Assembly: GCF_004117055.1 (NCBI RefSeq)
Contig: NZ_CP026363.1
Span: 1,036,001-1,100,000, forward strand
DNA from: Brevibacillus agri
GTDB taxonomy: Bacteria > Bacillota > Bacilli > Brevibacillales > Brevibacillaceae
Length of the DNA stretch: 64,000 bases
Direction: 5' to 3'
Shown in pieces: positions 389-35,580 of the stretch (position 1 is its first letter; every line of letters begins with the position of its first letter). Below the pieces are notes generated by a model. It did not search any database, had not been told where the DNA came from, and saw nothing but the letters and a program-made list of their open reading frames with translations. Both the position numbers and the translations under genes were made by a program.

Positions 389-3300
389 TTGTTGCAAGTT
401 GTGAAGGCAAAGCTGAGATCAGTGTTTATTACACTGGTTGTGGTTGCGGTTGTTCTAACAGGAATAATACCAGGCTCCTTACAGTCTAGTGCTGCCAGCG
501 GTAGTGTCGGAGGAGCAGGGATTACACTAATCGGTTTCTCAAAAGGTACGCAAAGTGATCCCTATATTCATTACGAACCAAGATTAACAATCAGTGGTAC
601 GTATGTGGGATTGAAGGATCCAAGGAATTTGCGTCTCAGCAGAAAAAATAACGGATTACTCGAAAAGTTAAGCGATCAACCTACCATTGTTGAAGGGACC
701 TCGACATTTACATTTTTCAACGTGGGTTTAAAACCGGGAATGAATGAAATTGGTTTCTATGAGCTAACCAATGCCGGAGAAGAAGTGAAGTTTACTTTTT
801 ATGTAATTTACAATGACACACCTGTTTTCAGCGACCTCAAAGTAGGGAATGTTCCATTATCAACCGATGTAACAGTTCCGACTATTGTTTATTCTTCCAG
901 ACCTTCAGCTATTACGGGTCGCGCCTTAAATGCGACAAATGTTCGTGTCGACAACCTTACAACGAATAAATCGTATACGACCAGAAGAGTAAATGATGGT
1001 GGTTCATTTGCCATCGACATGGTGTTGGCGAAGGGTTACAACAATTTGCGAATCACAGCATTGGCTGAGAACAAAGAAATTAATTTAGTAGAGCGTCAAG
1101 TGATTTACACGGATGAATACTCGAAACAGGGAGCAAACGATCACTTCTATAATGTCAAAATTGAGAAGACACCTCTTGACTCAGCAGGATTAGAGACCGT
1201 GGTAGATGAGAACATGAATGCTGAATTCATTGTTAGCGGTGATTTGCTGATTCACAAAGATAGTACGATTGAACCGTTTGGGGCGAGTGATCCGAAAACG
1301 ATTACGGATGCAGGTGAGATTCGAATTTACGACAGTAACGGAGATACAAAATTTAATCCTGAAGTGACGAGTCCTTCAATCCAGTACAAAGATACGTTAG
1401 GCGAGTACTTGCGCTATTCATTTTCTGTTAAAGTGCCAGGTACAACGAACTCCTTCGAGGATGGAAAGAAATATAGCCTGGCATTTTGGTATCCGTACAA
1501 CCAAGTCACAGTGGATGAGAGTGGCGTTGTAACGAGGACGCCAAAAAATGTGGAAATTGCCAACCATAAATACCCGATTCAGTACATGGATCAAGATAGC
1601 CCGCGTATTGAGAGCATGGTGCTTTCATCTGAAGGAAACGTGCAGGTCGACTTGAATAACGTCAACATTGTTCGTTCTTCGCCTTATACAATAGAGTTGA
1701 AAACGAAGAACATTTCAGATACGACTAAGTTCAAGATTTCGTACCTCTATGACACTACGAGAACTGATGACGATGACGCATTGGCTGGTCAATATGAAGT
1801 TAAACAAGATGATAAAGATACGAGTATCTTTCGAATAACAATCAAGAAGGCACCTTCCAAAGAAACGGATGTAAGGCTCACTTATGATAACAACAAGATA
1901 GAAAGAACCTTCAAGATTCGCCCGGAAGTCGTGCCGCATGTCCAATTAAGCTATGTCTCTTCGTCAGGAAAGACGGTTTATGTGGAAAAGGGTTTGACTA
2001 TTACTGATCTTAGTGACCCCTTAAATGGACAAGATCTGATTGGGCAAGTCCGTAACTATGCACCAGTTACACAAGGCAATGTGAAGGTGAAAATTGGAAG
2101 CGATCCTGTCACGATAACACCTCATCCTTCCGATGCTACACGTTTTACCATCAAGTCCGACGATTTGGGAAAAGTTTTAGAGAAAGATTCAAGCTCTGGA
2201 ATACGCGTTCTGGAAATTACTCTGGAGAATCAACCCAAATTGACCTTTAAGTACAACATTAGTTATATCAACGAAGTTGTGCCAAAAATCAAAGATGTCA
2301 AGTTTGAAATTGAGCAGAATAGCGAAACAGTTGTACTGTCTAAAAAGTCGACAGAAACTGATTATAACACCAGTGCTTTGTACCTCAGCGGCTTCAGCTT
2401 TGATGTTGAAGCAGCCGATGAAGTAACCGTTAAAAAAGACGGGAAAGTTATTGCTGTATTTAAAGATAAGTCGGGTACATGGGAGTTCCAAAAAATTGAT
2501 CCTGATTATCTCCAAAGCCTGAAAGCTGCGGTTCAAGGAACCGCGGATTCATCGAATACGAAGCTTGATTCGTTGTTTACAAGAAGTAATTTCGAATCGA
2601 CGGGCAACTCCTCAGATGATTCTTTTAAGGCTGAGATGGATGATTTCGATTATGTAAGCTTGCTCAATATTTTCGGAAAAATGGATAAGGAAGAAGCAAC
2701 CAAACGTTTGCCGCTCTTCCCGCTGGTATTACAGGAAGGCGGAAGCACCACATTCGAGATTTCGGCAGCAAAGGGTGACTTGATTACTCGTCAAAAATAT
2801 ACAATCAAACAGACTACACATTCGTGGATTGTATTGGATCCAATGAAGCGTGAAGGCGAGGATTACGTCACTGTTAACGCAAACAGTGCCAAGGTGCGGA
2901 TTTTTGCTGAGAATGCAGAAAAAATCTTGTTCGGTAAAGAAGAGGTTGTAGCCAAAAATACAACTGACCCGGAATTTGAGTTCAACGATAAATTGGGCAG
3001 GCCAATTCCAACCAATGGGTACTACATGTTCGAAAGCACGGTCTCTCTAAAGCCTGGACTGAATACCGTCAAGTATACGGTTGTCGTGAATGGGAACCAG
3101 TTTAAGGATGAGATCAAGATTTACAACGCGGGCTCTTCTGTCAGTGGAGCAGTTTATCGCGATATTTTAGGGAAAAAGGTCAGCTTCAGCGTATTTGAAA
3201 AGGCATTGGAGCTCAAATTTCCAACTGGAACGGTATTGCTTTCGCCGTCAGATGCTCGAGTTGGCGGTGAGGTGAATCACCCGCGTGATGACATCAATAT

Positions 3301-4402
3301 TGATGTGCCGCTTTATTTTGGGATTGCTGATCGTTCTACAGGACAAGTTGACCCTGATATTGAACCGGATAGCGATGACATAGAGGAAATGGAGGATATT
3401 CTTAAACCTGACTCCAATTTCAACTATGCGAGTCCACTTTATTATATTGACGCTGGAGTACAGGGAGCACCAGGGGGAACCGATCCTTATTACCAAGAAG
3501 ATGACGTTCTCATACGAGGAAAAGAAGTAGACCTCAAATTATGGCATAAGCGATATAGGGATAATTTGGTACCAAGCAAACAAGGTACACTATCCATTAA
3601 GTATGATTCTTCCATTGTCAATGCTGCCAACACTACTTTAGCGATTATGTACAATAATGGAGAAGGCTGGGTCAACATAGGTGGTGTTGTAAATACCGGA
3701 AAGAAAACGATAACGGTTCCTTTCCGTGGTTTCGGTTATTACATGGTTCTTAAAATTAAAAACAGCTTCCCCGATGTAGTGAACCACGAGTTTGCCCGTG
3801 ATGCAATTGAGACATTATACTCGAAAGGGATCATGGTAGCATCAGATTACAACTGGTTTGGGGCAGATATGAAAATCACTCGTGGGGAATTTGCTACGAT
3901 GATTGTAAAAGCGTTGGATTTGCCAATAAACGCTGGTCCGTATAGAGACGAAGCTAATTCCCGTCCTTCTTCTCCGACATTCAGCGATGTGGATCGAAAT
4001 GACAACAATCCATGGAACTGGAGCTATGAGTACATTGAGACGGCAGCTCGTGCCGGTATTGTTAGAGGCAAGGATGCGGAACGCTTCTTTCCGGACGACT
4101 CATTGACACGTGAGGAAGCCGCGATTATTATTGCGAGAGCTTTGAACTTGAAAACAGGCAACCCTGATACATCAAAAGTCGCTTTGGGAAAAATGTTTAC
4201 AGATGCTCACTTAACAGGATACTACGCTGTACCATCTGTATTGGCGGTTACAAAAGCAAAAATCATGAATGGAGAACCAAATGATGCTACAGCAAAGAAG
4301 CCGACATACCGATTCAATCCTAGAGGGGATTTGACTAGAGCGGAGATGGCAGTTATTACTTATCGCATCATGGTCCAACTCAAAAAACTGCCTAAACAGT
4401 AA
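389..4402 (+). CDS. Large secreted SLH-domain (S-layer-like) protein
   Basis: 1337 residues. The TTG start is preceded by aggagaggtgag at good spacing. An N-terminal signal peptide (basic start, hydrophobic core near residues 11-30, SSAASG cleavage region) marks it as exported. The body (about 40-1120) looks like a chain of beta-sandwich modules without a recognisable enzyme motif. Three SLH domains sit at the C-terminus (about 1126-1337), with the usual TRGEF, TREEA and TRAEM turns; SLH domains bind pyruvylated secondary cell-wall polymer. This is the reverse of the major S-layer protein at 7123, whose SLH domains are N-terminal. Likely a minor S-layer or surface-associated protein; its specific role is unknown. 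It stands alone between two terminators. Confidence 0.85.
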   Translation: MLQVVKAKLRSVFITLVVVAVVLTGIIPGSLQSSAASGSVGGAGITLIGFSKGTQSDPYIHYEPRLTISGTYVGLKDPRNLRLSRKNNGLLEKLSDQPTIVEGTSTFTFFNVGLKPGMNEIGFYELTNAGEEVKFTFYVIYNDTPVFSDLKVGNVPLSTDVTVPTIVYSSRPSAITGRALNATNVRVDNLTTNKSYTTRRVNDGGSFAIDMVLAKGYNNLRITALAENKEINLVERQVIYTDEYSKQGANDHFYNVKIEKTPLDSAGLETVVDENMNAEFIVSGDLLIHKDSTIEPFGASDPKTITDAGEIRIYDSNGDTKFNPEVTSPSIQYKDTLGEYLRYSFSVKVPGTTNSFEDGKKYSLAFWYPYNQVTVDESGVVTRTPKNVEIANHKYPIQYMDQDSPRIESMVLSSEGNVQVDLNNVNIVRSSPYTIELKTKNISDTTKFKISYLYDTTRTDDDDALAGQYEVKQDDKDTSIFRITIKKAPSKETDVRLTYDNNKIERTFKIRPEVVPHVQLSYVSSSGKTVYVEKGLTITDLSDPLNGQDLIGQVRNYAPVTQGNVKVKIGSDPVTITPHPSDATRFTIKSDDLGKVLEKDSSSGIRVLEITLENQPKLTFKYNISYINEVVPKIKDVKFEIEQNSETVVLSKKSTETDYNTSALYLSGFSFDVEAADEVTVKKDGKVIAVFKDKSGTWEFQKIDPDYLQSLKAAVQGTADSSNTKLDSLFTRSNFESTGNSSDDSFKAEMDDFDYVSLLNIFGKMDKEEATKRLPLFPLVLQEGGSTTFEISAAKGDLITRQKYTIKQTTHSWIVLDPMKREGEDYVTVNANSAKVRIFAENAEKILFGKEEVVAKNTTDPEFEFNDKLGRPIPTNGYYMFESTVSLKPGLNTVKYTVVVNGNQFKDEIKIYNAGSSVSGAVYRDILGKKVSFSVFEKALELKFPTGTVLLSPSDARVGGEVNHPRDDINIDVPLYFGIADRSTGQVDPDIEPDSDDIEEMEDILKPDSNFNYASPLYYIDAGVQGAPGGTDPYYQEDDVLIRGKEVDLKLWHKRYRDNLVPSKQGTLSIKYDSSIVNAANTTLAIMYNNGEGWVNIGGVVNTGKKTITVPFRGFGYYMVLKIKNSFPDVVNHEFARDAIETLYSKGIMVASDYNWFGADMKITRGEFATMIVKALDLPINAGPYRDEANSRPSSPTFSDVDRNDNNPWNWSYEYIETAARAGIVRGKDAERFFPDDSLTREEAAIIIARALNLKTGNPDTSKVALGKMFTDAHLTGYYAVPSVLAVTKAKIMNGEPNDATAKKPTYRFNPRGDLTRAEMAVITYRIMVQLKKLPKQ

Positions 4403-4508: not shown

Positions 4509-5168
4509 TTACTCCCCCGATTCATCCCCCACCGCTTCCACAGGCACCTCGACATACTCCTTCTCACCCAGGACAATCTGCGCCTGTCCATTCGTCAAAT
4601 CGGTAAACCGCTCCACAAACGCATCCTGCCCCCCCTCGGGAATCAGCACATGCGCGGTAACCTTGTCCGTAAAATCAGTCCCGCTCACCCGATATTCACC
4701 GATACGCAGCTCGTTCTCCACCTTGCCCCACCACGTATAGTCCACTGTCACCGAGATTGCCTGGTGCAGCGTATGCACAACGATTTTCGCGGCTTTCAAG
4801 GCTGCAACCGTTCCCGCTGTATAAGCCCGGACAAGTCCGCCAGCTCCCAGCTTGATTCCCCCGAAGTAACGGGTAACCACTACGACGGTGTCCTTTACGC
4901 CGTTTTTCTTGATGCACTCCAGGATCGGCTTGCCTGCCGTACCACTAGGCTCGCCATCATCACTTGAGCGTTGAATCTGGTCGTTTTCGCCGATGACAAA
5001 AGCGGAGCAATTGTGGGTGGCATCCCAGTGCTTCTTTTTAATCATGGCGATAAAAGCAACCGCTTCTTCTTCCGTCGTAACCCGCTGCGCATAGCCGATG
5101 AAGCGGGAGCGCTCGATGACGATGTAGTCCTCTCCATAGCCAGCGACGGTTTTGTATTCTGTAAGCAT
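4509..5168 (-). CDS. yvyE: YigZ/YvyE family (IMPACT family) protein
   Basis: 219 residues, the normal length for bacterial IMPACT-family proteins. The N-terminal UPF0029 domain shows the family signature: RSRFIGYA, HNCSAF, SSDDGEPSGTAGKPI and VVVTRYFGGIKLGAGGLVRAY. The last 70 residues fit the ferredoxin-like C-terminal domain. ATG at 5168 follows a gaggtgatt ribosome site. The molecular function is unsettled; a translation- or RNA-related role is proposed from the eukaryotic IMPACT protein. In B. subtilis yvyE neighbours degS; here degS is 31 kb away with the S-layer and accessory block between. Confidence 0.93.
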   Translation of the reverse strand: MLTEYKTVAGYGEDYIVIERSRFIGYAQRVTTEEEAVAFIAMIKKKHWDATHNCSAFVIGENDQIQRSSDDGEPSGTAGKPILECIKKNGVKDTVVVVTRYFGGIKLGAGGLVRAYTAGTVAALKAAKIVVHTLHQAISVTVDYTWWGKVENELRIGEYRVSGTDFTDKVTAHVLIPEGGQDAFVERFTDLTNGQAQIVLGEKEYVEVPVEAVGDESGE

Positions 5169-5454: not shown

Positions 5455-6666
5455 GTGAATTTTCCATATTCGAGCAAAAAGTGGATGAGCATCAGTTTGG
5501 CGGCTGTACTCACAACCGCAATTGGAGCAGGAACCTTGACGGCATCTGCCAATACAGGAACAGAGGCGGCGAAACCGGCGCAGCCAGCACAAACCGTAGC
5601 AGCGGAAACAGGCAATACAACGACATCCGAGACTGCTGCACTGGAAGAGCTGACGCTGGAAAAAGCGATTGAACAAGCGTTGCAAACCAACAATACGCTC
5701 CAGAATGCACGTATTGACGCGAAAAATGCGGATTTGAACGAATCGCTTTCCTATATTACCTCTGCTGACATGTCCAAAGATATGATCGATTCCCTGGAAG
5801 GAACAAAAGAACAATTGAACGCCGCAAAGGCCAAGTACGTAGGGAATGCACAAGCAGAGATCAACAAAAAACTGAATGCACTGATGGTGAAAGCTACAGA
5901 ATCCAAAATCAGATTGGGTGCGCAAAATGTCTACTACAACCTCATTTTTGCGCAGGACGACTATGAATTGAAAAAACAAAGCCTGACGCGTGCAGAAACG
6001 CAACTGAAAGTGGCCAAAGCGGCATTTGATGTGGGAACAAAAGCAAAAACAGACGTCCTGCAGGCAGAAATGGGCGTAGCAGGGGCAAAGGCTGCTTTGA
6101 CATCCGCAGCAAATGCGGTAGAAGTAGCGCGCATGGATTTGAATGATTTTCTTGGCGTTGACCTGAACAAAAAGTGGAAGATCGTCTCCAGCAACAAACA
6201 GGTTGCGCCGATTTCCTTGACTTTGGAGCAGGCACAAGCTCAGGCTCTTTCCAAACGTGTCGAGATGACAAAAGTACAGGAAGAACTGAATTTGGCAGAA
6301 CTGAACGTCAAATTGATCGAGGAGTATTCGGCATTGTCGACCCTCCAAGGCCGCCAAGCCCGCAATAACGTAGATAAGTCGAAAATGGCGATCGAGGAAC
6401 AAAAACGCACCATCTCCAAGGAAGTTGCCCAAGCTTATTTGAATCTGAATGCGGCAAGAGAGGCGATTGAGTTCCAGAAAACAGCGAAAAACTCTGCTGC
6501 CGAGAGCTACCGTCTGACAAATCTGCGCTTTGAAAACGGCCTGGCGACTACACTTGAAGTGATCCAGGCAGAAGAAGAGCTTTCCGACCGCGAGAACCAG
6601 TACCAAAAAGCGATTCTCAACTACAACCTGGCTGTCGTAAACTTTGAAACAGCACTCGGCAACTAG
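5455..6666 (+). CDS. TolC-like (outer membrane efflux family) secreted coiled-coil protein
   Basis: 403 residues from GTG, preceded by aaaggagtgg. A signal peptide (SKKW, hydrophobic 11-28, TASA cleavage near 32) is followed by a low-complexity Ala/Thr/Glu linker (33-65). The rest is almost wholly helical and falls into two related halves. Each half carries the outer-membrane-factor type segment: LEKAIEQALQTNNTLQNARI and later LEQAQAQALSKRVEMTKVQE, plus LRFENGLATTLEVIQAEEEL near the end. In Gram-negatives these helices build the periplasmic TolC barrel. A Gram-positive cell has no outer membrane, so the role here is unknown; location next to the S-layer operon suggests the cell envelope. No membrane-fusion or pump gene is adjacent. 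Confidence 0.85.
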   Translation: MNFPYSSKKWMSISLAAVLTTAIGAGTLTASANTGTEAAKPAQPAQTVAAETGNTTTSETAALEELTLEKAIEQALQTNNTLQNARIDAKNADLNESLSYITSADMSKDMIDSLEGTKEQLNAAKAKYVGNAQAEINKKLNALMVKATESKIRLGAQNVYYNLIFAQDDYELKKQSLTRAETQLKVAKAAFDVGTKAKTDVLQAEMGVAGAKAALTSAANAVEVARMDLNDFLGVDLNKKWKIVSSNKQVAPISLTLEQAQAQALSKRVEMTKVQEELNLAELNVKLIEEYSALSTLQGRQARNNVDKSKMAIEEQKRTISKEVAQAYLNLNAAREAIEFQKTAKNSAAESYRLTNLRFENGLATTLEVIQAEEELSDRENQYQKAILNYNLAVVNFETALGN

Positions 6667-6725: not shown

Positions 6726-6754
6726 GTGACAGTCCGCCCTGCGTACCCTATAAT
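6726..6754 (+). promoter_or_regulatory. Sigma-A promoter of the S-layer operon (upstream)
   Basis: GTGACA (6726-6731), 17-bp spacer, TATAAT (6749-6754). It lies about 370 bp before the main start codon of the middle wall protein gene. The B. brevis cell-wall-protein operon is known for several tandem promoters in a long leader. Confidence 0.75.
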
Positions 6755-7122: not shown

Positions 7123-10100
7123 ATGAAAAAGGTCGTTAACAGTGTATTGGCTAGTGCACTCGCACTTTCTGTTGCTCCAATGGCTTTCGCAGCAGAAGAT
7201 GCAACTACAACAGCTCCTAAAATGGACGCTGCAATGGAAAAAACCGTTAAGCGCCTCGAAGCTCTTGGCCTGGTAGCAGGTTATGGCAACGGCGAATACG
7301 GTGTAGACAAAACAATCACTCGTGCAGAGTTCGCTACTCTGATCGTTCGCGCTCGCGGACTGGAGCAAGGTGCGAAACTGGCACAGTTCAACACTACTTA
7401 TACTGACGTTAAATCTACCGATTGGTTTGCTGGTTTCGTAAACGTAGCTTCCGGCGAAGAAATCGTAAAAGGTTTCCCGGACAAATCCTTCAAACCACAA
7501 AACCAAGTTACTTACGCTGAAGCGGTAACTATGATCGTTCGTGCACTGGGTTATGAGCCAGCAGTTCGTGGCGTATGGCCAAACAGCATGATCTCCAAAG
7601 CTTCCGAGCTGAACATTGCTAAGAGCATCACTACTCCTAACAATGCAGCAACTCGTGGCGACATCTTCAAAATGCTGGACAACGCTCTTCGCGTAGACCT
7701 GATGGAGCAAGTTGAGTTCGGAACTGACGTTCGTTACGAAGTTACCAACAAAACTCTCCTGACGAAATACCTGAAAGTAACTGTAGTTGACATGGATTGG
7801 GCTCATGAGAAAGATCATGATTCCGACGATCTGCCACTCGTTACTAACGTACCGGCAATCGGCCTGGGTAAACTGAAAGCGAACGAAATTACCCTGAACG
7901 GTAAAGAAGCTGGTCTGGGCAACACTACTTACAAAGTTGCTGACGGTATCAACCCTAACGACTTCGATGGTCAACGCGTACAAGTGTGGATCAAAGATGA
8001 CAGAGAAAACGTAATCGTTTGGATGGAAGGTTCCGAGGACGAAGAAGTAGTATTGGATCGTCTGAGCGAATTTACCCTCAAAGGTAAAACTACTGACGGT
8101 AAAAACCTGAGCACTTCCGATCTGGCAGATCTGAAAGTGGAACTGGATGCAAGCGGCAAAACTTACCGCTTCAACAAAAACTCCAAAATTACTTACAACT
8201 TCAAACGTTACAGCGATCCAGTTGACGCTCTGAAAGAGATCATCTCTGCTAACGACAGCTTTGGTGTAAAAGTTGTTCTGGACAGCAATAACGAAGTTTC
8301 TTACATGCACGTAATTGACGACACCAAAATGAACCTGAACTCCAAAGCGAAATACGGTTCTGAAGTGATCGGCAAAATCGATGTTGAGAAAAAGAAAATC
8401 ACCAACCTCGACACTGGTAAGTTCAACAAGCTGGAAGACAAAGAAGAAGGCAAAGACTTCCTCGTATTCCTGGATGGCAAACCAGCGAAACTGAGCGACC
8501 TGAAAGAAGGCGACGTATACTCTGTATACTACGCTGATGGCGATGAAGACAAACTGTTGGTATTCGCTAACCGCACAGTAGTAGAAGGTAAAGTTGACAA
8601 AGTAGTTAGCCGCAGCACATCTGACTTCCGTCTGACTGTTGGCGGCAAAACTTACCGTATCTACCCAGGTGCCACTTACTCCGATAACGGAAACAAAGAC
8701 GTTAAAGATCTCGATGACAAAAACTGGGATTTGGTATCCAACCTGGATTCCGAAACAGTGAAACTGGTACTGGATGCTTCCGGCCGCGTTCGTCACATTG
8801 AAACGAAAGATCCAATCGACGATCGTAAACAAAAAGCAATCGTTACCAAAGGTGTTGTTTACAACACTGCGAAAGACACTTACGACTTCACTGTGTTGAC
8901 TCAAAAAGGTAAAAAACTGGCTCTGTCCCTGGAAAAAGAGGACATTTACAACGCTGAAGGCAAACACTACGGCCGCGACAACATGGAAGCTGATGAGCTG
9001 GAAGACATCCTGCAACCAAGCAAAGATGAGTCCATCGCTCTGCTGGAAGTAACTTTGGATTCCAAAGGCGAAGTTGACAAAGTTCAAATTCTGAATTCCA
9101 AACTGCGTAAATCGTCCGGTTCTGCTTGGGATAAACTGGCAGACGAAACCGACGATGTTGTTGGCGACTACGAAGTAACCGACAAAACTGCCATCTTCAA
9201 AATGACTGGCAAATTGGATACGTCTTCCAAACGCGCTGAACTGAAAAACCCAGGCATTGCTAAGTTCAAAGATATCGCTGACGAGGACGATCTGACAGTT
9301 TACTACTCCGTTGATGAAGATAAAGACGAAGTAGAAGCGATCTTCGTAGTAGAAGGCGACGGTCTGACTGGCGACACTTACTACGGTGTAGTTACAGAAT
9401 ACGGTTCTTCCAACAGACAAGACACCATCAAAGTTATTACTAAAGATGGCGACTCTGTAACAACAAAAGAGTACAAATTGGACGATGATCGTGAAGAGTT
9501 GCAAGATCGTGGTATCAAACGCGGCGACTTCATCGCATTCCAATTGAACTCCGATGATGAAGTAGTTGTTGATGACGTTATCGAAGTTGTTAACAACAAA
9601 GCAATCAATCTTAAAAACAACGTACAACTGGTGGATAAATCCGAGTGGAAAAATGCTAGCATCGAGAAACTGACAGTTGCTCGTGTAGATGATGTTAACG
9701 GCAACACCATCACTTACGAAGCTGGCAAAGGCGATACTCGCAAACTGCTGACTAAATCTTCCACTGCTTTCATCGACGTATACGATGATTTCGAAGCTGA
9801 AGATGGCGTAGAAGAAGGCGACTACATCGTTCTGCTGGACAGCAGCGAAATCGACGGCGATCGTTATGACTACGTTCTGATCGTAGGTAGCGTAGACTGG
9901 GTAGAAAAAGAAGGCGTAGATGAAAAAGCTGTTGAAGACTTCCTGAAACAATCTTTCGGCGATGACAACGGTGGCGGCAACGACGACTGGGATGCTGTTC
10001 CTTCTTCTGTAACTGTAGAAAATGGTAAATTCTCTATCGGTGTTGCGACATCCTATCTGTTCACTGTTGATTTGAACAAAGATGTTGACGCTAGCGAAGT

Positions 10101-10263
10101 AAAATCTGCAACAGTTACACTCGACGGTGAAACTTTCAATGGAAAAGTAGAAGGAAACAAAATCAAATTTGCTTTCTCTGCTTCTGTTGATGTAACCTCC
10201 TTGAAAGTTACAGTAACTAGCCAAGAAGGCGAAACAGATACTACAACTGTAAACTTCAAATAA
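7123..10263 (+). CDS. S-layer middle wall protein (MWP-type), N-terminal SLH domains
   Basis: 1046 residues from ATG 7123; a TTG 31 codons upstream is an alternative in-frame start. Signal peptide MKKVVNSVLASALALSVAPM with AFA|AED cleavage after residue 23. Three SLH domains fill about 35-195 (motifs TRAEFATLIVRA, GFPDKSFKPQNQ, TRGDIFKML) and would anchor the protein to wall polymer. The long acidic central region (200-950) carries repeated beta-rich modules, and the last 90 residues look Ig-like. The sequence closely resembles what I remember of the B. brevis middle wall protein. Strongly biased codon use (ctg, aaa, gtt/gta) is typical of a very highly expressed gene. Cotranscribed with the outer wall protein gene downstream. 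Confidence 0.93.
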   Translation: MKKVVNSVLASALALSVAPMAFAAEDATTTAPKMDAAMEKTVKRLEALGLVAGYGNGEYGVDKTITRAEFATLIVRARGLEQGAKLAQFNTTYTDVKSTDWFAGFVNVASGEEIVKGFPDKSFKPQNQVTYAEAVTMIVRALGYEPAVRGVWPNSMISKASELNIAKSITTPNNAATRGDIFKMLDNALRVDLMEQVEFGTDVRYEVTNKTLLTKYLKVTVVDMDWAHEKDHDSDDLPLVTNVPAIGLGKLKANEITLNGKEAGLGNTTYKVADGINPNDFDGQRVQVWIKDDRENVIVWMEGSEDEEVVLDRLSEFTLKGKTTDGKNLSTSDLADLKVELDASGKTYRFNKNSKITYNFKRYSDPVDALKEIISANDSFGVKVVLDSNNEVSYMHVIDDTKMNLNSKAKYGSEVIGKIDVEKKKITNLDTGKFNKLEDKEEGKDFLVFLDGKPAKLSDLKEGDVYSVYYADGDEDKLLVFANRTVVEGKVDKVVSRSTSDFRLTVGGKTYRIYPGATYSDNGNKDVKDLDDKNWDLVSNLDSETVKLVLDASGRVRHIETKDPIDDRKQKAIVTKGVVYNTAKDTYDFTVLTQKGKKLALSLEKEDIYNAEGKHYGRDNMEADELEDILQPSKDESIALLEVTLDSKGEVDKVQILNSKLRKSSGSAWDKLADETDDVVGDYEVTDKTAIFKMTGKLDTSSKRAELKNPGIAKFKDIADEDDLTVYYSVDEDKDEVEAIFVVEGDGLTGDTYYGVVTEYGSSNRQDTIKVITKDGDSVTTKEYKLDDDREELQDRGIKRGDFIAFQLNSDDEVVVDDVIEVVNNKAINLKNNVQLVDKSEWKNASIEKLTVARVDDVNGNTITYEAGKGDTRKLLTKSSTAFIDVYDDFEAEDGVEEGDYIVLLDSSEIDGDRYDYVLIVGSVDWVEKEGVDEKAVEDFLKQSFGDDNGGGNDDWDAVPSSVTVENGKFSIGVATSYLFTVDLNKDVDASEVKSATVTLDGETFNGKVEGNKIKFAFSASVDVTSLKVTVTSQEGETDTTTVNFK

Positions 10264-10390: not shown

Positions 10391-12961
10391 GTGAATAAAA
10401 AAGTAACTCTTTCCCTGCTCTCTGCTACAGTATTCGCTAGCATGGCTGCTTCTGCCTTTGCTGCACCAACACAAGGTGTTTACATGGGCGGTAGCGTAGA
10501 CAAATTCTATAAGCTGGATGATTTGTTCAATCTGAGTGCTGCAGCTAAAAAACAATTTGTTGTCGACTTGAATGCTGCTAATCCAGACCTCGACTTTAAA
10601 AACCTTGTGTTTGTTGACTTTGACGGCAAAGGCGCTAAATTCAGTGAAATCTTGGCTGCAGGCACTCTGCCAAAAGCTAAGAGAGACCTGACCAAAGCTG
10701 ATTTCGAAGGCTCTTACGTGACAGTAAACCTGGATGGCTCTAATGGTGTTTCTTACGATCCTCGTAACGATGCAGTTGATGTGCCTACTGGTGATTTGAA
10801 AGTTGAGTCGGTAAGTGCTATTAACGCTAAACAAATCCAAGTTAAATTTAACAACGCTGTTGATGAAGACACAGCACTTGACGTAACCAATTATTCTATC
10901 AAGCTTGCTGGTGCATCTGCTGTTGCAATGGCTACTTCTGGTAACAACAAAGCAACAGCTGAATTGAGCGAAGATGGTAAAACAGTTACTCTGACACTTA
11001 CCAATGCTCTGACAACAACTTACTGGGGTTCCATCGCTGATGGCGATGTATTCCAAGTGATTGTTGATGGTGTAAAAGATTCTGCTGGACATGAGTTGGC
11101 GGAAACAGTAAAAACAGTTACTTACACCGATAAGGAAGCACCTACCTTCGTTTCTGCTACAGCTACAGCTAAAACGACAACTAATAAAGTAACATTGTCT
11201 TTCAGCGAGCCAATCGATTATTCTCAGGCAACCGTTACTGTTAACGGTGTAGCAGCAAGCCTCAGCGCTGGTACTAAAGCAAACGAAGTAGTAGTTACAT
11301 CTGGTAGCAACTTGAACGCAGGTTCTAGCTACGAGCTGAAACTCTTGAACTTTAAAGATGCTGCTGGTAACTTGTTGACTCCTAACCCTGTAGTGACAAG
11401 TGTTACAGTTCAAGCGGATGTTACTGCTCCAGTAGTAACTGGCGTAAGTGTAGTTCGTGATAGCTTGATCGAAGTGACTTTCGATAAGTCTATGGATCCT
11501 GCAACTGTTAACTCAACTTCAGTAAAATTGTTGAATACTGACTTGGCTACTACTGGAATCACTCAAGGTACCATCCAGCCTAAACCAAATACAAGCAACA
11601 AAACATTCTTGGTACCATTTACTGCAATCCCATTCAATAGCAACGGTACATTCACTGGAGTACTCTCCTTTACAAGTGCTATTAAGGATGCTGCAGGTAA
11701 TGCGTTCACTGCAAAAACTGAGTCTGTAACATTGACTAAAGACACAGTTGCTCCAGAAGTTGTAAGTGCGACCTACACTAACAAAACATCTTACAATGGT
11801 GTTACAACTACTAACGGTGCAATCATCGTTAAGTTCAACGAAAAAATTGCCGCATCTGCTGCTGCAAACACCTACGTTGTTGTAAATGACCAAGGTGCAC
11901 CTGTAAGCACTCCTATCGCTAGCACAGCAGTTAACCCGAATGATGCTACTGAACTCATTTTGGTACTGAATGCAGGCGTCGCTACAGGCACAAAAACTTA
12001 TACTGTTGTAATGCCAGCTTCCGCTGCAACCGACTTGTCTGTATCTCAAAATGCTTCTGCATCAGTACATCTGACTGTAGATGTTTCTGCTGGCGGTCCA
12101 GTTGCTAATGATCCAACTGCTCCGGTTGTAAACACAGTAACACCGACAGCAGCAACCAGCTCTACTTCCGGAACTACGATTGCAGTTGCATTCACTGAAG
12201 CAGGTTCTGGTTTGGATCCAGCTACCATTCAAGATCTTAACAACTATCGTTTGGATGGAGCACCACTGCCGTCTGGATCTTATGTGACCTTGTCTGGTAC
12301 AACAGCTACAATTAATATCCCGGCTGGTAAGTTTGCAGAAGACAAGGCTTATGCATTTAATATCAACGGAATTAAGGATAAAGCTGGCAATGTAATGAAT
12401 CCTTATGTTGGCAGTGTAAACCTTAAAGATGATATCAAGCCTGAGTTGACATCTGCTACACTGAACAGCAACGGAACAGTTTCTCTCGGATTTAGCGAGA
12501 AAGTAAATGCTGCATCTGGTAAAGAAGCAGACTTTGCAGTAACTGTGAATGGTTCCTTGCTCACAGGTACCAATAAAGCTTACACATTGGCTGACGGCGT
12601 TGGTTCCGATGCAGGAAAATATGTGCTGACAGTTAAACTTGCTACTATTGGTAAGGCAGCAACTGCTGGTTCCTACACTGATCCAAACGGTGGTACTTGG
12701 ACGACTGCTGGCGCAACAAATGTTGTTAAATTCACGTTTGTTGACGTTGATGGTAACCAAGACCTCTCCGCTGGCGATATTATCTTGACAGGTACTGATA
12801 CAGGCGCAACGACAGCAATTGCGTTCTCTGATAACGCAGCTTACGACCTGAACAATGCTCTCAGTGTTAAGGTTGGAACAATCGCTAGCCCAAGCCTGGT
12901 GACAGACACCAGCAATCTCACAAACGTTGTTAAGGGCAGCAAAACTATTACTGTAAAGTAA
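10391..12961 (+). CDS. S-layer outer wall protein (OWP-type), Ig-like repeat protein
   Basis: 856 residues from GTG, with ggaggggt 5 bases upstream. Signal peptide MNKKVTLSLLSATVFASMAA, SAFA|APT cleavage after residue 24. After an N-terminal module (25-130) come about six SbsA-type Ig-like domains. Each starts with a pattern such as VESVSAINAKQIQVKF, APTFVSATA, APVVTGVSVV, APEVVSATY, APVVNTVTP or KPELTSATLN and contains a (V/L)xF(S/N/D)(E/K)x(I/V/M) strand. There is no SLH domain, so attachment is probably through the middle wall protein layer, as in B. brevis. It is transcribed with the preceding gene and shows the same high-expression codon bias. Confidence 0.9.
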   Translation: MNKKVTLSLLSATVFASMAASAFAAPTQGVYMGGSVDKFYKLDDLFNLSAAAKKQFVVDLNAANPDLDFKNLVFVDFDGKGAKFSEILAAGTLPKAKRDLTKADFEGSYVTVNLDGSNGVSYDPRNDAVDVPTGDLKVESVSAINAKQIQVKFNNAVDEDTALDVTNYSIKLAGASAVAMATSGNNKATAELSEDGKTVTLTLTNALTTTYWGSIADGDVFQVIVDGVKDSAGHELAETVKTVTYTDKEAPTFVSATATAKTTTNKVTLSFSEPIDYSQATVTVNGVAASLSAGTKANEVVVTSGSNLNAGSSYELKLLNFKDAAGNLLTPNPVVTSVTVQADVTAPVVTGVSVVRDSLIEVTFDKSMDPATVNSTSVKLLNTDLATTGITQGTIQPKPNTSNKTFLVPFTAIPFNSNGTFTGVLSFTSAIKDAAGNAFTAKTESVTLTKDTVAPEVVSATYTNKTSYNGVTTTNGAIIVKFNEKIAASAAANTYVVVNDQGAPVSTPIASTAVNPNDATELILVLNAGVATGTKTYTVVMPASAATDLSVSQNASASVHLTVDVSAGGPVANDPTAPVVNTVTPTAATSSTSGTTIAVAFTEAGSGLDPATIQDLNNYRLDGAPLPSGSYVTLSGTTATINIPAGKFAEDKAYAFNINGIKDKAGNVMNPYVGSVNLKDDIKPELTSATLNSNGTVSLGFSEKVNAASGKEADFAVTVNGSLLTGTNKAYTLADGVGSDAGKYVLTVKLATIGKAATAGSYTDPNGGTWTTAGATNVVKFTFVDVDGNQDLSAGDIILTGTDTGATTAIAFSDNAAYDLNNALSVKVGTIASPSLVTDTSNLTNVVKGSKTITVK

Positions 12962-13735: not shown

Positions 13736-14638
13736 GTGACCAAACTAATGGACTTGAAGATCGACTTCGCGTTCAAGCAGGTGTTTGGCAAAGAGGGAAA
13801 CGAACCGATTCTCCTTGCCTTTCTGAATGCCGCGCTCCAATTGCCGAAGGAAAAGCGGCTCTCTTCGGTGGAAATCCTCAATCCTGAAATCAATCGGGAA
13901 CACATCGAGGATAAGGCATCCGTGCTGGATATCCACGCCAAGACAGAGCAGGGGGAGCATGTCAACATCGAGATTCAGTTCGCGAACAAGTTCGACATGG
14001 AGAAGCGTACCCTGTACTACTGGTCACGCATCTACTCGGCCCAAATGCAAAAAGGAATGCCGTACACGGAACTGGCGAAGACGATCGCGATCAACATCCT
14101 CAATTTTCGCTTTCTGCGGGAAACTGAGCGGTTCCACACCACATTCCACCTGTACGAGGATCAGGAGCAGTTTCCGCTGACAGATGTGATGGAGATTCAC
14201 TTCATGGAGATCCCGAAGCTGATGGACAAGTGGGAACAGCGTGCGGTCAATCCGCATGACAATGAGCTGGAAAGATGGCTGCTGCTTCTGGAGGCGGACG
14301 ATCACGAAGAAATTCGCAAGGAATTGGAGGCGATAGCGATGCAAGATCCGGTCATGAAACGGGCGTTTGACGAATGGGAAGACCTGAGCCGTGACGAGAA
14401 GAAATGGGTCGAGTACGAGTCTCGTCGGAAGGCGATTCTGGACGAGATGGCGGCTGTAAGGGAAGCCGAGATACGTCAACAAAGGGCGAGAGAAGAAGGA
14501 TTGGCAGAAGGCGAGCGGCAAAAGGCACTGGAAGTAGCAAAAAACTTGTTAGCGATGGACATGTCTGTGGAAGTGATTGCAAAAGCAACGGGATTGTCGG
14601 CAGAAGAAATCGAACAACTGAAAAAGCAACTTCACTAA
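13736..14638 (+). CDS. Rpn family recombination-promoting nuclease/putative transposase (PDDEXK_2)
   Basis: 300 residues from GTG with agggag upstream. The N-terminus (MDLKIDFAFKQVFG) and the core SVLDIHAKTEQGEHVNIEIQ hold the PD-(D/E)xK pattern: D of LDIHAKT, then E-x-Q of IEIQ. The C-terminal tail is a charged helix with KAL.VAKNLLAMDMSVEVIA ending in KKQLH, as in RpnA-E type proteins. E. coli relatives cleave DNA and promote RecA-independent recombination. A terminator follows. A frameshifted paralogue with the same upstream sequence sits in opposite orientation at 20321-21159. Confidence 0.88.
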   Translation: MTKLMDLKIDFAFKQVFGKEGNEPILLAFLNAALQLPKEKRLSSVEILNPEINREHIEDKASVLDIHAKTEQGEHVNIEIQFANKFDMEKRTLYYWSRIYSAQMQKGMPYTELAKTIAINILNFRFLRETERFHTTFHLYEDQEQFPLTDVMEIHFMEIPKLMDKWEQRAVNPHDNELERWLLLLEADDHEEIRKELEAIAMQDPVMKRAFDEWEDLSRDEKKWVEYESRRKAILDEMAAVREAEIRQQRAREEGLAEGERQKALEVAKNLLAMDMSVEVIAKATGLSAEEIEQLKKQLH

Positions 14639-17855: not shown

Positions 17856-19062
<1,207 letters not shown>

Positions 19063-19100
19063 CTATGTGGTTGTTTCAAACCGGAGTTCCCGATATTTGT

Positions 19101-19613
19101 TCAAGCGGGCCGGTTCAAGCCTGAAAACCTCAAACGCAACGGGAAGGACATAATCAGCACTTTGCGCTCCACGAGTTGACCTGGTTGCCCAACATAGGCT
19201 GTACCAAAATCAACCTGTGCCTCTCCGCCGGGGTGTTCGAGTCGTTCATAGCTTTCGGCACGTTCCAGCTTGAGTTCTTTTCGGCGTTTGGCTACATATT
19301 CTTCAACAGTGCGTCGTCCGCCCTCAAACCTGTATTCATCACGCAGACGATCAAAGATTCGCTTCGCGGTATAACGCTGTTTGCGGGGCAACGCCTGCTC
19401 CTCCGTTAACCAAGTATCAATGATGTCAAGATACGGACCGAGAACGGGATATCGTCTCTTGCGCCGACAAACGGGTTCATTCCAATCGTCCTTTGTGGCG
19501 TATTTCTTGGCTGTCCTCCAATTGACTCCCATGGCTCTCGCAATCTCCGAGATTGAATAATCCTCATTCTCGTACAAAAATTTGATATACTGTTGCTGTG
19601 GCACTTTCAACAT
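19101..19613 (-). pseudogene. istA N-terminal fragment (IS21 transposase)
   Basis: From ATG 19613 (gagagga upstream) 170 residues remain. The N-terminal HTH (YSISEIARAMGVNWRTAKKY) and the start of the DDE domain with its first Asp (EAQVDFGTAYV) are present. After KVLIMSFP the frame leaves the family and stops, whereas complete IstA proteins run to about 400-500 residues. Together with the fused remnant downstream this indicates an internal deletion. Not functional as a transposase. Confidence 0.82.
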
Positions 19614-19755
19614 TCCTCTCACATCTCCCTGGTTCTTCTGGACAAAGACCAAGGTAGACTTAATAGAGTGATGTTGGCAAGTGCCTATTTATTTTTCCGC
19701 CTTGTAAAACGCAGGCTAGCTCTGCATTTTTACGCTGCGATTTTCTGTACTTTTA

Positions 19756-20320: not shown

Positions 20321-21159
20321 CTAGTGAAGTTGCTGCTTTAGTTTTTGAATTTCATCTGGAGAAAGTTCCGTGTACCTTGCAATTTTGTCGATTGGTTCCC
20401 CATCTGCTAACATATTCAATGCCATTTTGATTGCCTTTTGCCGCTCGCCTTCCGCTTTTGCTCCCTTAATCATGTTGAGCTCATCCTTCAGCGCCTTCTC
20501 CCGCAACTCGTACAACCTGCGAGCCTCGGCATCCTGGCTCAGAAATTCAAGGACGTTGACCGCCTTGCGAATCGTCGGTTCGCTCATCGCCAATTCCTCC
20601 AGTTTCTTTTTGCTCTCGGCTTTAAAAAACAGCATCCACTTGACCAACATATCGCTGGTTTCCTGGTGCACTCCTGATACCTTGGGCAATTCGAGAAAGT
20701 GGATCTCCAGATCGTCGGTTAACACAAATCCTTTCTCATCCTCCCGCAGCCGAAACACACTGTGGTAGTTCTCTGTCGGAAGGTACTCAAAGTCTATGAT
20801 GCTGATCGTGACCGTTTTTTTGAGGTTCCGGTACGGTTCACCTTCGGCCAGCTGTCCCTCGTACATCTTTGCCCAATAGTACAGGGAGCGCTTCTCCATG
20901 TCGTACTTGTTGTGAAGCTGCACTTCGATGTTGATCTGTTCGCCCGTCTTCGTTTTCGCTCTCACATCGAGGATGGAAGCCTTGTCTCCGACCTGATCGG
21001 CGTTGATGTGCGGATCAACCAGGATGATTCCTTCAGCTCTTTACCTTCCTCCGGTTTCAGCGTGGCATTGAGAAACGATAGCAACAGATCTTTGTTTTCC
21101 TCGGTGCCAAAGATTCGTTTGAACACAAAATCGACGATTGGATTCATCCGCTTGGTCAC
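20321..21159 (-). pseudogene. Rpn family nuclease (PDDEXK_2), frameshifted paralogue
   Basis: Two overlapping frames together make one protein. GTG 21159 gives residues 1-45 (MNPIVDFVFKRIFG, LSFLNATLKPEEGKELKE), then a one-base loss near 21030 moves the frame. Downstream, the other frame reads ILVDPHINADQVGDKASILD, then VRAKTKTGEQINIEVQLHN, and runs to KLKQQLH. The PD-(D/E)xK residues are present but lie after the shift. Start region, promoter and C-terminus match the intact gene at 13736, in opposite orientation. A shorter product starting at ATG 20965 might still be made. Confidence 0.85.
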
Positions 21160-31322: not shown

Positions 31323-31363
31323 GCTGCGCTAGTTGCAGGGGAAAGTAAGGAAGGACTGTGTTT

Positions 31364-33931
31364 ATGAAAAAATCGATTCAAATAGCCGTGTCAGTTGCGA
31401 TGCTGCTCACGCTTGTACCGCTGGGCGTGCGGCCTGCACTCGCTGCCGCGCCTGCTTCCAATGACAGCTATCTGAGCAATCAGTTGCACATCAGCCAGAT
31501 CAAGGCCGACAAGGCGTGGCCTGTAGTCAACAGCAACCAGGCGATTACGATTGCCGTGCTCGATTCCGGAGCGGACTACAATCACCCTGACTTGAAAGGG
31601 AATCTGCTGCCGGGTGTCAATCTGGTCAACCCGGGGAAATCGGCGCAGGATGACAACGGGCACGGGACAGAAGTCATCGGGGTTCTCGCTGCAAAAGGCA
31701 ACAACGGGATCGGGGTATCAGGGGTAGTCTGGAACGCCCGGATTTTGCCGATCAAAATTTTGAACAAAGATGCAGTGACGAATGTGGACATGATTGCGAA
31801 GGGGATCAATACAGCGCTCGACAGGGGAGCCAAAGTTATCCTGATGTCGTTCAGCAGCCTGTCCTATTCCCGCTCCTTGAAAGAGGCCATTGACCGTGCG
31901 GAGAGAAGCGGAGCCGTCCTCGTCGCTGCCAGCGGAAACGAAGCAAGCCGCGTCGCCTATCCGGCTGCCTACCCGACAGTCGTTGCGGTTGGGGCCGTGA
32001 ATGGGAAAAACCAGGCGATTTATCAATCGAACACGGGGCCTGAGTTAAACATTGTGGCGCCGGGGCTTAACGTATATACGACGAAGCTGGGCGGAAAGTA
32101 CGGATCGTTTTCCGGTACGTCAGCGGCAGCGCCTCAAGTGGCGGGAGCGGCGGCCCTGATTTTGGCCCGCTATCCAAAGCTGACGGCGCTGGATGTGAGG
32201 CAAATGCTTTACCAGACGGCTACAGACCTCGGCGAGAGCGGCTGGGACCGGCAAACAGGCTACGGATTGCTGGACGTGAACAAGGCAGTGCGCAGCGCGC
32301 TCTCCGGCGACTTTTTGGAGCCGAACAACTCTTTGCAGCGAGCCAAAGCATTCCCTATCGAACAGCAAATACGCGGCAACCTGGGGCCAAACGACACGGT
32401 AGACTGGTTTAAAATGGATGTGCCGTATGACGGAAAAGTCAGCTTTACGGCGACGATTAACTCCGGGGTATCCTCCGCCATGGCGGCTACCTTTTACCCG
32501 GAAAACCGAACGCCGATTACGCAGTATTTTGGAAACGGGGATACCGTTACCGTCCCGGCAAAAGCGGGCAGGATGAACATCAAGCTGATGCGAAACGGCG
32601 GCGTCAACTCGTTTGCCTACGTGCTGACGAGCAAGTTCACGATCAACCCGGACCGCAATGAGCCAAACGATACGATGGCGACGGCAAGGCCGCTGGTAGG
32701 CAACCAGATCAGCGTCACGGGCAACTTCCACCAGGAGGGCGACCAGGACTGGTTCTCCTACTACGTCCGCGAATACGGGCATATGGATGTGACGGTGACT
32801 CCCGACAACAAGCGGGTGGACCTGGTGCTTGCCATAGGAAAGCAGGAAACCGGAAAAAATACGGTTTGGGACCCGCTCTACGACAACGTCGATCGCGATA
32901 ATCCGTCCGAGCGTGCGAGCAAGGAAGTCTCCCCGGGAAAATACTACATTCGGGTCAGCGAGTATCAGCAAAATGCGGTGAACGGCGAATATCGTCTGGA
33001 TCTCGGGTTCACCCCGCTGAAAAAAGATTTGAACGAGCCGAATGATACGTACAGCAGGGCGTCGCCGCTAGCCGCCGGAGGGGTCATGACCGGAACGATT
33101 CCGACGGCTTCGGATGCAGACTGGTTTCAATTTACGCTCAATACAGACTCGTACGTCACGATTCGAGCCCCGTTTATTCCGGTATCCAGCGGTTTTCGCA
33201 TCGCTCTTTACAGCGAGAAAAACATGAACTACGCGCTCGCTTCGACAAACGAAGTGGCTGAGCTGTCCGATCGGGGCAGCGAGATTTTCAGCCTGCGGTT
33301 GCCAAAAGGCAAGTATTACGTGCGCCTGAACAGCGGCATTCCGTTCAAGTACGATGCGTACAAATTGACAGTCACGCAGCAGCCCCTCGTTTCGGGGTAT
33401 CGGGATATTTCCGACCATTGGGCGCGCACAGAGATCGCCAGGCTGAGCTCCAAAAGAATTGTCCAAGGCTTCGGCGATGCGACGTTCAAGCCTAACGAGG
33501 CAGTAACTCGTGCGCAGTTTGCCACAATGCTGCTGCAGGCGATGCGCGCAACCGGCTCGAAGGTAGCCAGCGCGTATTCCGGACGGGAAGTGTTTTCTGA
33601 TTTGCCAAAAAAGCACTGGGCGTACAACACCCTTGGAGTGGCTTATCAGCTCGGAGTCTTGAAGGGGTATCCAAACAGTCAGATCAAGCCTGACCAAGCT
33701 GTTTCGCGGGCGGAAATGGCCGCGATGATCGCCAGGGCGAAGGGCGTGGCTCTGAACAGCAGCAGCGCACCGAGCTATCGCGATGTTCCGGCCGGCCATT
33801 GGGCAGCACCGGCGATCGGCGCTTTGACGGCAAGAAACTGGCTAAACGGATACGGTTCGCTCTTCAAGCCACAGGGCAGCGCTACGCGGGCCGAGGTTGT
33901 TGTATTAATCGCCAAATCGTATCAAGTGTAA
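31364..33931 (+). CDS. Subtilisin-like (S8) serine protease with PPC-type and SLH domains
   Basis: 855 residues from ATG 31364 (aaggaagga upstream; GTG two codons earlier is too close to it). Signal peptide with ALA|AA cleavage near 27. Catalytic triad visible: Asp67 (AVLDSGADYNHPD), His100 (NGHGTEV, with Glu for the usual second His), Ser253 (SFSGTSAAAPQVAGAAAL); oxyanion Asn192 (AASGNE). Three pre-peptidase-like beta modules follow, each opening with EPN(D/N) (about 321-660), then three SLH domains (680-855; TRAQF, SRAEM, TRAEV) for wall anchoring. A surface-tethered protease, possibly for S-layer turnover or nutrition. Little or no propeptide is evident. Confidence 0.92.
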   Translation: MKKSIQIAVSVAMLLTLVPLGVRPALAAAPASNDSYLSNQLHISQIKADKAWPVVNSNQAITIAVLDSGADYNHPDLKGNLLPGVNLVNPGKSAQDDNGHGTEVIGVLAAKGNNGIGVSGVVWNARILPIKILNKDAVTNVDMIAKGINTALDRGAKVILMSFSSLSYSRSLKEAIDRAERSGAVLVAASGNEASRVAYPAAYPTVVAVGAVNGKNQAIYQSNTGPELNIVAPGLNVYTTKLGGKYGSFSGTSAAAPQVAGAAALILARYPKLTALDVRQMLYQTATDLGESGWDRQTGYGLLDVNKAVRSALSGDFLEPNNSLQRAKAFPIEQQIRGNLGPNDTVDWFKMDVPYDGKVSFTATINSGVSSAMAATFYPENRTPITQYFGNGDTVTVPAKAGRMNIKLMRNGGVNSFAYVLTSKFTINPDRNEPNDTMATARPLVGNQISVTGNFHQEGDQDWFSYYVREYGHMDVTVTPDNKRVDLVLAIGKQETGKNTVWDPLYDNVDRDNPSERASKEVSPGKYYIRVSEYQQNAVNGEYRLDLGFTPLKKDLNEPNDTYSRASPLAAGGVMTGTIPTASDADWFQFTLNTDSYVTIRAPFIPVSSGFRIALYSEKNMNYALASTNEVAELSDRGSEIFSLRLPKGKYYVRLNSGIPFKYDAYKLTVTQQPLVSGYRDISDHWARTEIARLSSKRIVQGFGDATFKPNEAVTRAQFATMLLQAMRATGSKVASAYSGREVFSDLPKKHWAYNTLGVAYQLGVLKGYPNSQIKPDQAVSRAEMAAMIARAKGVALNSSSAPSYRDVPAGHWAAPAIGALTARNWLNGYGSLFKPQGSATRAEVVVLIAKSYQV

Positions 33932-34368: not shown

Positions 34369-35580
34369 ATGGCTTTGCAAAAAGGTCGTCGTCTGTTCAC
34401 ATCTGAGTCTGTAACCGAAGGACATCCGGATAAAATTTGTGACCAAATTTCCGACTCCATCCTGGACGCCATTTTGGCCAAGGATCCAAACGCTCGCGTA
34501 GCTTGCGAAACTTCCGTAACTACCGGGCTGGTTCTCGTAGCCGGTGAAATCACCACCAACACGTATGTGGACATCCAAAAGCTGGTGCGCGAAACGATCC
34601 GTGAGATCGGTTATGATCGTGCGAAGTTCGGCTTTGACGCTGACACTTGCGGCGTAATCACTGCGATCGGCGAGCAATCCGCTGACATCGCTCTCGGCGT
34701 AGACCAGGCTTTGGAAGCGCGCGAAGGCAAAATGACCGACGCTGAGATCGAAGCGATCGGTGCAGGTGACCAAGGTCTGATGTTCGGCTTTGCTTGCAAC
34801 GAAACACCTGAGCTGATGCCGCTGCCGATCAGCATGTCTCACAAGCTGGCTCGCCGCTTGACTGAAGTTCGCAAAAACGGCACACTCGCCTACCTGCGTC
34901 CTGACGGCAAAACGCAAGTAACGGTTGAGTACGATGGAGACAAGCCAGTTCGCATCGACACCATCGTGATTTCGACTCAACACGCTCCTGAGACTACCTT
35001 GGAGCAAATCAAGCAAGACCTCATCGAACAAGTTATCAAACCAGTTGTTCCGGCTGAGCTGCTGGACGCTGACACCAAATACTTCATCAACCCGACTGGC
35101 CGCTTCGTAATCGGCGGACCTCAAGGGGACGCTGGTCTGACTGGCCGCAAAATCATCGTAGACACTTACGGTGGCTACGCTCGTCACGGCGGCGGCGCGT
35201 TCTCCGGTAAAGATCCGACAAAAGTAGACCGCTCCGGCGCTTACGCTGCTCGTTACGTAGCGAAAAACATTGTGGCTGCTGGCCTGGCTGACAAATGCGA
35301 AGTGCAAGTGGCTTACGCAATCGGTGTAGCGCAGCCTGTATCCATCGCTGTTGATACTTTTGGTACAGGAACCGTTTCCGAAGAAGATCTGGTGAAACTG
35401 GTGCGCAAACACTTCGACCTGCGTCCGGCTGGCATCATCAAGCAGCTCGACCTGCGTCGCCCTATCTACAAACAAACAGCGGCTTATGGCCACTTTGGAC
35501 GCAATGACCTGAATGTTCCTTGGGAGCAAACAGACAAAGCAGAAGTTCTGAAGCAAGAAGCTGCGCAACTGGCAAAATAA
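34369..35580 (+). CDS. metK: S-adenosylmethionine synthetase
   Basis: 403 residues from ATG with aaaggaggta. Makes SAM from methionine and ATP in the cytoplasm. Diagnostic motifs: [18 protein letters not shown], the hexapeptide GAGDQG ([10 protein letters not shown]) and [20 protein letters not shown]. Length is standard for bacterial MetK. Codon use is strongly biased, as for a highly expressed gene. Controlled by the SAM-I riboswitch just upstream; single-gene unit with its own terminator. Confidence 0.98.

Follow-up and report, generated by a model that had tools for sequence, protein, structure and literature searches.

The gene at positions 5455..6666 of the window (the whole stretch of 64,000 nucleotides that was analysed; features lie on the + strand unless stated otherwise) encodes an exported, internally duplicated protein of the TolC/OMF family. 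It has lost its β-barrel and it lies inside an S-layer locus. We put at about 0.6 the probability that it serves tripartite pumps as an exit duct through the wall, an orphan shared among several of them that opens in the S-layer or beneath it. The host, a Brevibacillus, has a genome of 5.37 Mb on a single contig. The ORF (403 amino acids) begins with GTG, immediately preceded by the ribosome binding site AAAAGGAGTGG. By sequence reading, residues 1–32 (5455..5550) are a probable Sec signal peptide, with KK, a hydrophobic core and cleavage between ASA and NT; this signal is kept in the orthologues. These occur in about 17 Brevibacillus records, with B. gelatini the nearest at 92%. An Ala/Thr-rich linker follows (5551..5643), disordered in the structural model (pLDDT <50), with an entropy of 1.76 and a length that differs from one orthologue to another. 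Pfam OEP (PF02321) matches the protein in two stretches at 8.3e-29, scoring 101 bits where the cut-off is 22, and NCBIfam TIGR01844 matches at 2e-26, under the cut-off of that family. The original prediction of an exported protein with the two-half pattern of the family is thus borne out.

If the protein belongs to the TolC family, does its β-barrel persist? This was checked with an AlphaFold monomer model, built with 29 sequences, which has a mean pLDDT of 79 and a pTM of 0.72. The model is all-helical. A short helix, a helix, a helix of 75 residues and a further helix succeed one another, and the series is repeated once; together with the Pfam match it delimits the helices of a first TolC half (mature residues 36–201; 5656..6153) and of a second (mature residues 225–368; 6223..6654). 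Foldseek returned 44 significant matches in the PDB, all of them TolC/OMF proteins, the next entry standing at an E of 0.2. The duplicated α-barrel half-repeat fold is present, with a TM score (query) of about 0.7 to TolC, and an hhalign profile comparison with E. coli TolC gave a probability of 95.8 and an E of 8e-9. Family, profile and fold searches return TolC/OMF proteins only, which rules out a chance coiled-coil match. Nor is the model that of an unrelated coiled coil lacking the TolC repeat: it is duplicated, and only TolC/OMF structures match it.

On the other hand, of the four β-strands per protomer expected of an outer-membrane barrel the model contains none. The first former barrel site (mature residues 70–85; 5758..5805) is now a poorly conserved loop and short helix. 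At the second (6325..6348; about 10 residues), in the C-terminal half, the inter-helix stretch that holds the strands of TolC measures 10 residues, against 59 in E. coli TolC. A pump-linked homologue from another family (locus L055) has the same all-helix fold at a pLDDT of 87; the strands are missing from both models, and a hidden β-barrel is ruled out. The predicted likeness to TolC therefore holds for the α part, the duplicated helical fold, and fails for the barrel, whose strands have been deleted. With E. coli TolC and OprM the protein shares the duplicated α-barrel half-repeats, the tip turns and an orphan gene probably common to several pumps. It differs from them in having short variable loops in place of β-barrel strands, and in belonging to a host that has no outer membrane.

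The absence of an outer membrane, part of the original prediction, was examined through Omp85/BamA. No match was found in any of the 40 TolC-bearing Bacilli genomes searched, this genome and 39 others, whereas 7 of 14 control genomes gave one. A diderm host is ruled out because Omp85 is absent. The protein thus has the marks of a monoderm TolC-like protein: OEP duplication, an export signal (by reading), a host with SLH proteins and no BamA.

The gene was said to lie directly upstream of the S-layer operon, and so it does. The ATG of SLP1 is at 7123, 456 nt past the TolC stop codon, and no terminator was found between the two. SLP1 (7123..10263; Pfam SLH 1e-23), a conserved neighbour, is an SLH-domain S-layer protein, presumably of the MWP/HWP type. 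Next in the operon comes another exported surface protein, SLP2 (10391..12961), which contains Big_5 repeats and is found nearby at most loci of the family. Between TolC and the operon lies a promoter-like GTGACA-17-TATAAT (6726..6754), a consensus match only, at 11 of 12 positions. Upstream of TolC is a conserved divergent neighbour, a YigZ/IMPACT-family gene (4509..5168, − strand; TIGR00257), on the far side of which the gene of a large SLH-domain protein (389..4402; Pfam SLH 6e-22) is likewise conserved. Elsewhere in the window, reading by eye picks out a subtilisin-like protease with SLH-like repeats at its C-terminus (31358–33931). It also picks out two Rpn-family nuclease/transposase-like genes, at 13736–14638 (+) and 20321–20965 (−), that bracket a stretch with IS21-like istA/istB remnants (18205–19652).

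Is this arrangement a local accident? All 25 Brevibacillus genomes have the genes in one order, SLH protein, YigZ (opposite strand), TolC and SLH S-layer protein, and in most of them a further surface protein comes after the S-layer gene. Five other genera of the family have the same order, with TolC identities of about 40–58%, the distal SLH gene being undetected at some loci. No pump gene adjoins TolC in the Brevibacillaceae S-layer loci examined (Brevibacillus and the five other genera). In other families these neighbours come up again. At L055 the genes run SLH, SLP1-like, TolC, adaptor, RND; at L110 a TolC–adaptor–RND set is flanked by an SLP1-like gene and an SLH gene; L106 and L124 retain SLH, YigZ and SLP1, and TolC follows at a distance of one to a few genes, adjoined at L124 by an adaptor. 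Outside the family, 10 of 26 TolC loci include an SLH gene at a distance of 5 kb or less, against 3.9 expected (p 0.003); the expectation uses an SLH density derived from search counts, which is an upper bound. As a separate matter, at L106 (4853–7162) and L124 (10723–12999) a large, apparently polytopic membrane protein, possibly related to surface glycans, is encoded directly after the S-layer gene, at L124 ahead of TolC. The record titled Anoxybacillus sediminis (L089, NZ_CP064048.1) has a Brevibacillus-type locus and its genome groups with Brevibacillus, so that the title is probably a misnomer.

The window also contains metK (at 34369) and degS/degU (from 36739). TolC lies near metK at L111, L123 and L124, and near degS/degU at L124 and L139. 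Since these genes recur beside it in several families, the gene order suggests that TolC was inherited vertically from a common ancestor. Family-wide synteny and the proximity of TolC to metK or degSU elsewhere rule out that the gene is a contaminant or a recent acquisition from a Gram-negative. The recurrence of TolC-like genes near metK and/or degSU in several Bacilli families suggests, in its own right, an old envelope locus. Linkage to the S-layer genes may nevertheless reflect shared regulation or chromosomal inertia instead of contact between the proteins.

How far does the association with SLH proteins extend? Among 399 Bacilli genomes, OEP matches occur in 82 and SLH matches in 193, and all 82 OEP-positive genomes are also SLH-positive, although some of the weak OEP matches are adaptor coiled coils and SLH proteins are not all S-layer proteins. 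At the level of genera, SLH is found in 35 of 35 that are TolC-positive, against 76 of 145 overall (p ~1e-12), where such p-values overstate independence because the genomes are related. The relatedness of the genomes and the adaptors among the weak matches make the co-occurrence strong but inexact. Far from being scattered outside any envelope context, the homologues show S-layer-locus synteny and are nested among SLH-bearing genomes. This bears on the idea that the protein is a relic of a diderm ancestor, a cap that stabilises the adaptor and ends inside the wall, short of the surface. A distal end without a barrel and the vertical descent suggested by metK and degSU would agree with it, and an ancestral outer membrane in the Firmicutes has been argued for (PMC5007114). 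We think it unlikely, for the strict co-occurrence with SLH suggests that a surface layer matters for retention of the protein.

Which parts of the protein are best conserved? Adaptors dock on TolC at its tip turns. Among 24 Brevibacillus orthologues, these two turns are the most conserved parts of the protein. Tip 1 (AFDVGTKAKTDVL; 6022..6060), which aligns with the VGLVAITDV tip of TolC, has an entropy of 0.27 with 9 of 13 positions invariant; tip 2 (RFENGLATTLEVI; 6526..6564) has an entropy of 0.14 with 10 of 13 invariant. Elsewhere the values are 0.5–0.9 in the helices, about 1.3 at the former barrel sites and 1.8 in the linker. The tip glycines are invariant across families. Both turns are candidate adaptor-docking sites.

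The adaptor side was compared in the same way. The motif RxxxLxxxxxxS (RLS) of adaptors binds the TolC tip, as shown by mutation (PMC3391258). An AcrA-like adaptor is present in 40 of 40 TolC-positive genomes and in 10 of 42 that are TolC-negative, and some Bacilli without TolC still have RND and adaptor genes. The RLS motif occurs in 24 of 30 adaptors from TolC-positive genomes against 1 of 11 from TolC-negative ones (p 6e-5), a count biased by the search query, which itself carries RLS.

These results bear on the two roles that had been suggested, that of a conduit or spacer spanning the wall/S-layer zone and that of a structural coiled coil. A coiled-coil spacer of that zone with no role as a channel would suit the lost barrel, the Ala/Thr-rich linker, the position inside the S-layer locus and the Brevibacillaceae S-layer loci that have no adjacent pump gene. 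The only other clear TolC-like protein of the genome (L051:6273–7463; C1, about 4738272–4739462) has its first tip deleted, so that relatives of the α-TolC type can evidently lose the docking end. But a spacer needs no docking tips, and yet conservation is highest in precisely those two turns; the RLS motif that matches them is retained by adaptors of these genomes, and relatives share an operon with an adaptor and an RND pump. We regard it as very unlikely, and conservation that peaks at the docking tips speaks against a plain coiled coil as well. The conduit, on the other hand, gains from the conserved tips, the RLS adaptors, the TolC–adaptor–RND sets in S-layer loci and the SLH nesting. Further TolC-like paralogues with a deleted first tip, like that of L051, are found at L063 and L065.

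If the protein is a duct, which pumps might it serve? At least eight loci in the genome encode adaptors. RND transporters adjoin four of them (L052, L187, L188, L189) and MFS transporters two (L054, L191); the full RLS motif is present in five of the adaptors, while others have only its L and S part. Since none of these loci has a TolC gene alongside, the S-layer-locus TolC is the best candidate for a shared duct. As the gene is an orphan, with no pump beside it in Brevibacillus, its product is probably shared by several pumps, like TolC in E. coli.

Might it instead be a channel or chaperone that helps to export or assemble its neighbours, the S-layer and surface proteins of the locus? The deep linkage to S-layer genes favours such a role. 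Type I systems that contain TolC export S-layer proteins in some Gram-negatives, a precedent in its favour. For the Gram-positive Desulfotomaculum reducens, whose surface proteome includes a TolC-family protein and two HlyD proteins, type I/TolC export of S-layer proteins has been suggested (PMC4137172). We judge it quite improbable here. The S-layer protein has an apparent Sec signal peptide at its N-terminus and would therefore need no dedicated channel, and where TolC is linked to a pump, that pump is an exporter of the RND type (ACR_tran) and not a type I ABC exporter.

We therefore favour the shared exit duct as the most economical reading; none of the others explains equally well the conservation of tips and RLS together with the S-layer linkage. 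How would it work? Exported by Sec, the protein would trimerise into an α-barrel, for which the continuous 75-residue helix would provide some 11 nm. The RND and MFS pumps of the cytoplasmic membrane have hexameric AcrA/HlyD-type adaptors, and the tips of the duct would dock on these end-to-end, which would lead cargo out through the peptidoglycan and not into the wall. With the outer-membrane barrel lost, we infer that the distal end opens inside the S-layer whose genes are its neighbours, or immediately beneath it. More tentatively, and as a possibility that we hold to be somewhat less than even, the S-layer might act as a protein 'outer membrane', its lattice holding a barrel-less TolC in or under it as the common exit of several RND and MFS pumps. 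This would be true trans-envelope efflux in a Gram-positive cell, S-layer and duct having stayed together from an ancestor common to several families of Bacilli.

Tripartite efflux counts as a Gram-negative trait. As in AcrAB–TolC and MacAB–TolC, an RND pump, an adaptor with an RLS hairpin tip and a TolC-type duct are combined in one operon in some related Bacilli (L055, L110); in the two known pumps the exit is an outer membrane, while here it would be the wall/S-layer zone. If S-layered Bacilli do run this architecture through the wall, then trans-envelope efflux, S-layer function and the diderm-to-monoderm transition would be connected, and all three questions would be testable in Brevibacillus, which is harmless and genetically tractable. 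The retention of long-hairpin adaptors with TolC-binding tips would also be explained.

The general idea of TolC-like proteins in S-layered monoderms is not new, having been published in 2022. Stubenrauch et al. (PMC8809574) described 12 examples from monoderm Firmicutes, in five families and only in S-layer bearers, and proposed that the S-layer houses them; they noted that the C. difficile protein has part of its barrel omitted, and cited its shedding with S-layer proteins. Like those proteins, ours is an exported OEP-family member that lacks part of the barrel, in an S-layer host with no BamA. Many of theirs, though not all, are in pump operons, whereas ours is an orphan inside the S-layer locus. 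What is new is the invariant placement in that locus, the lack of a pump gene alongside, the comparison of RLS motifs and the measured loss of the barrel, none of which was found in the literature searched, together with the genome-wide test of SLH nesting. A search of the literature on the Brevibacillus wall protein and TolC found nothing relevant. Among the homologues of other Bacilli genera, three (L107:8068–9630, L125:9022–10542 and L137:8254–9711) carry a Cu_amine_oxidN1 domain (PF07833) N-terminal to the OEP part.
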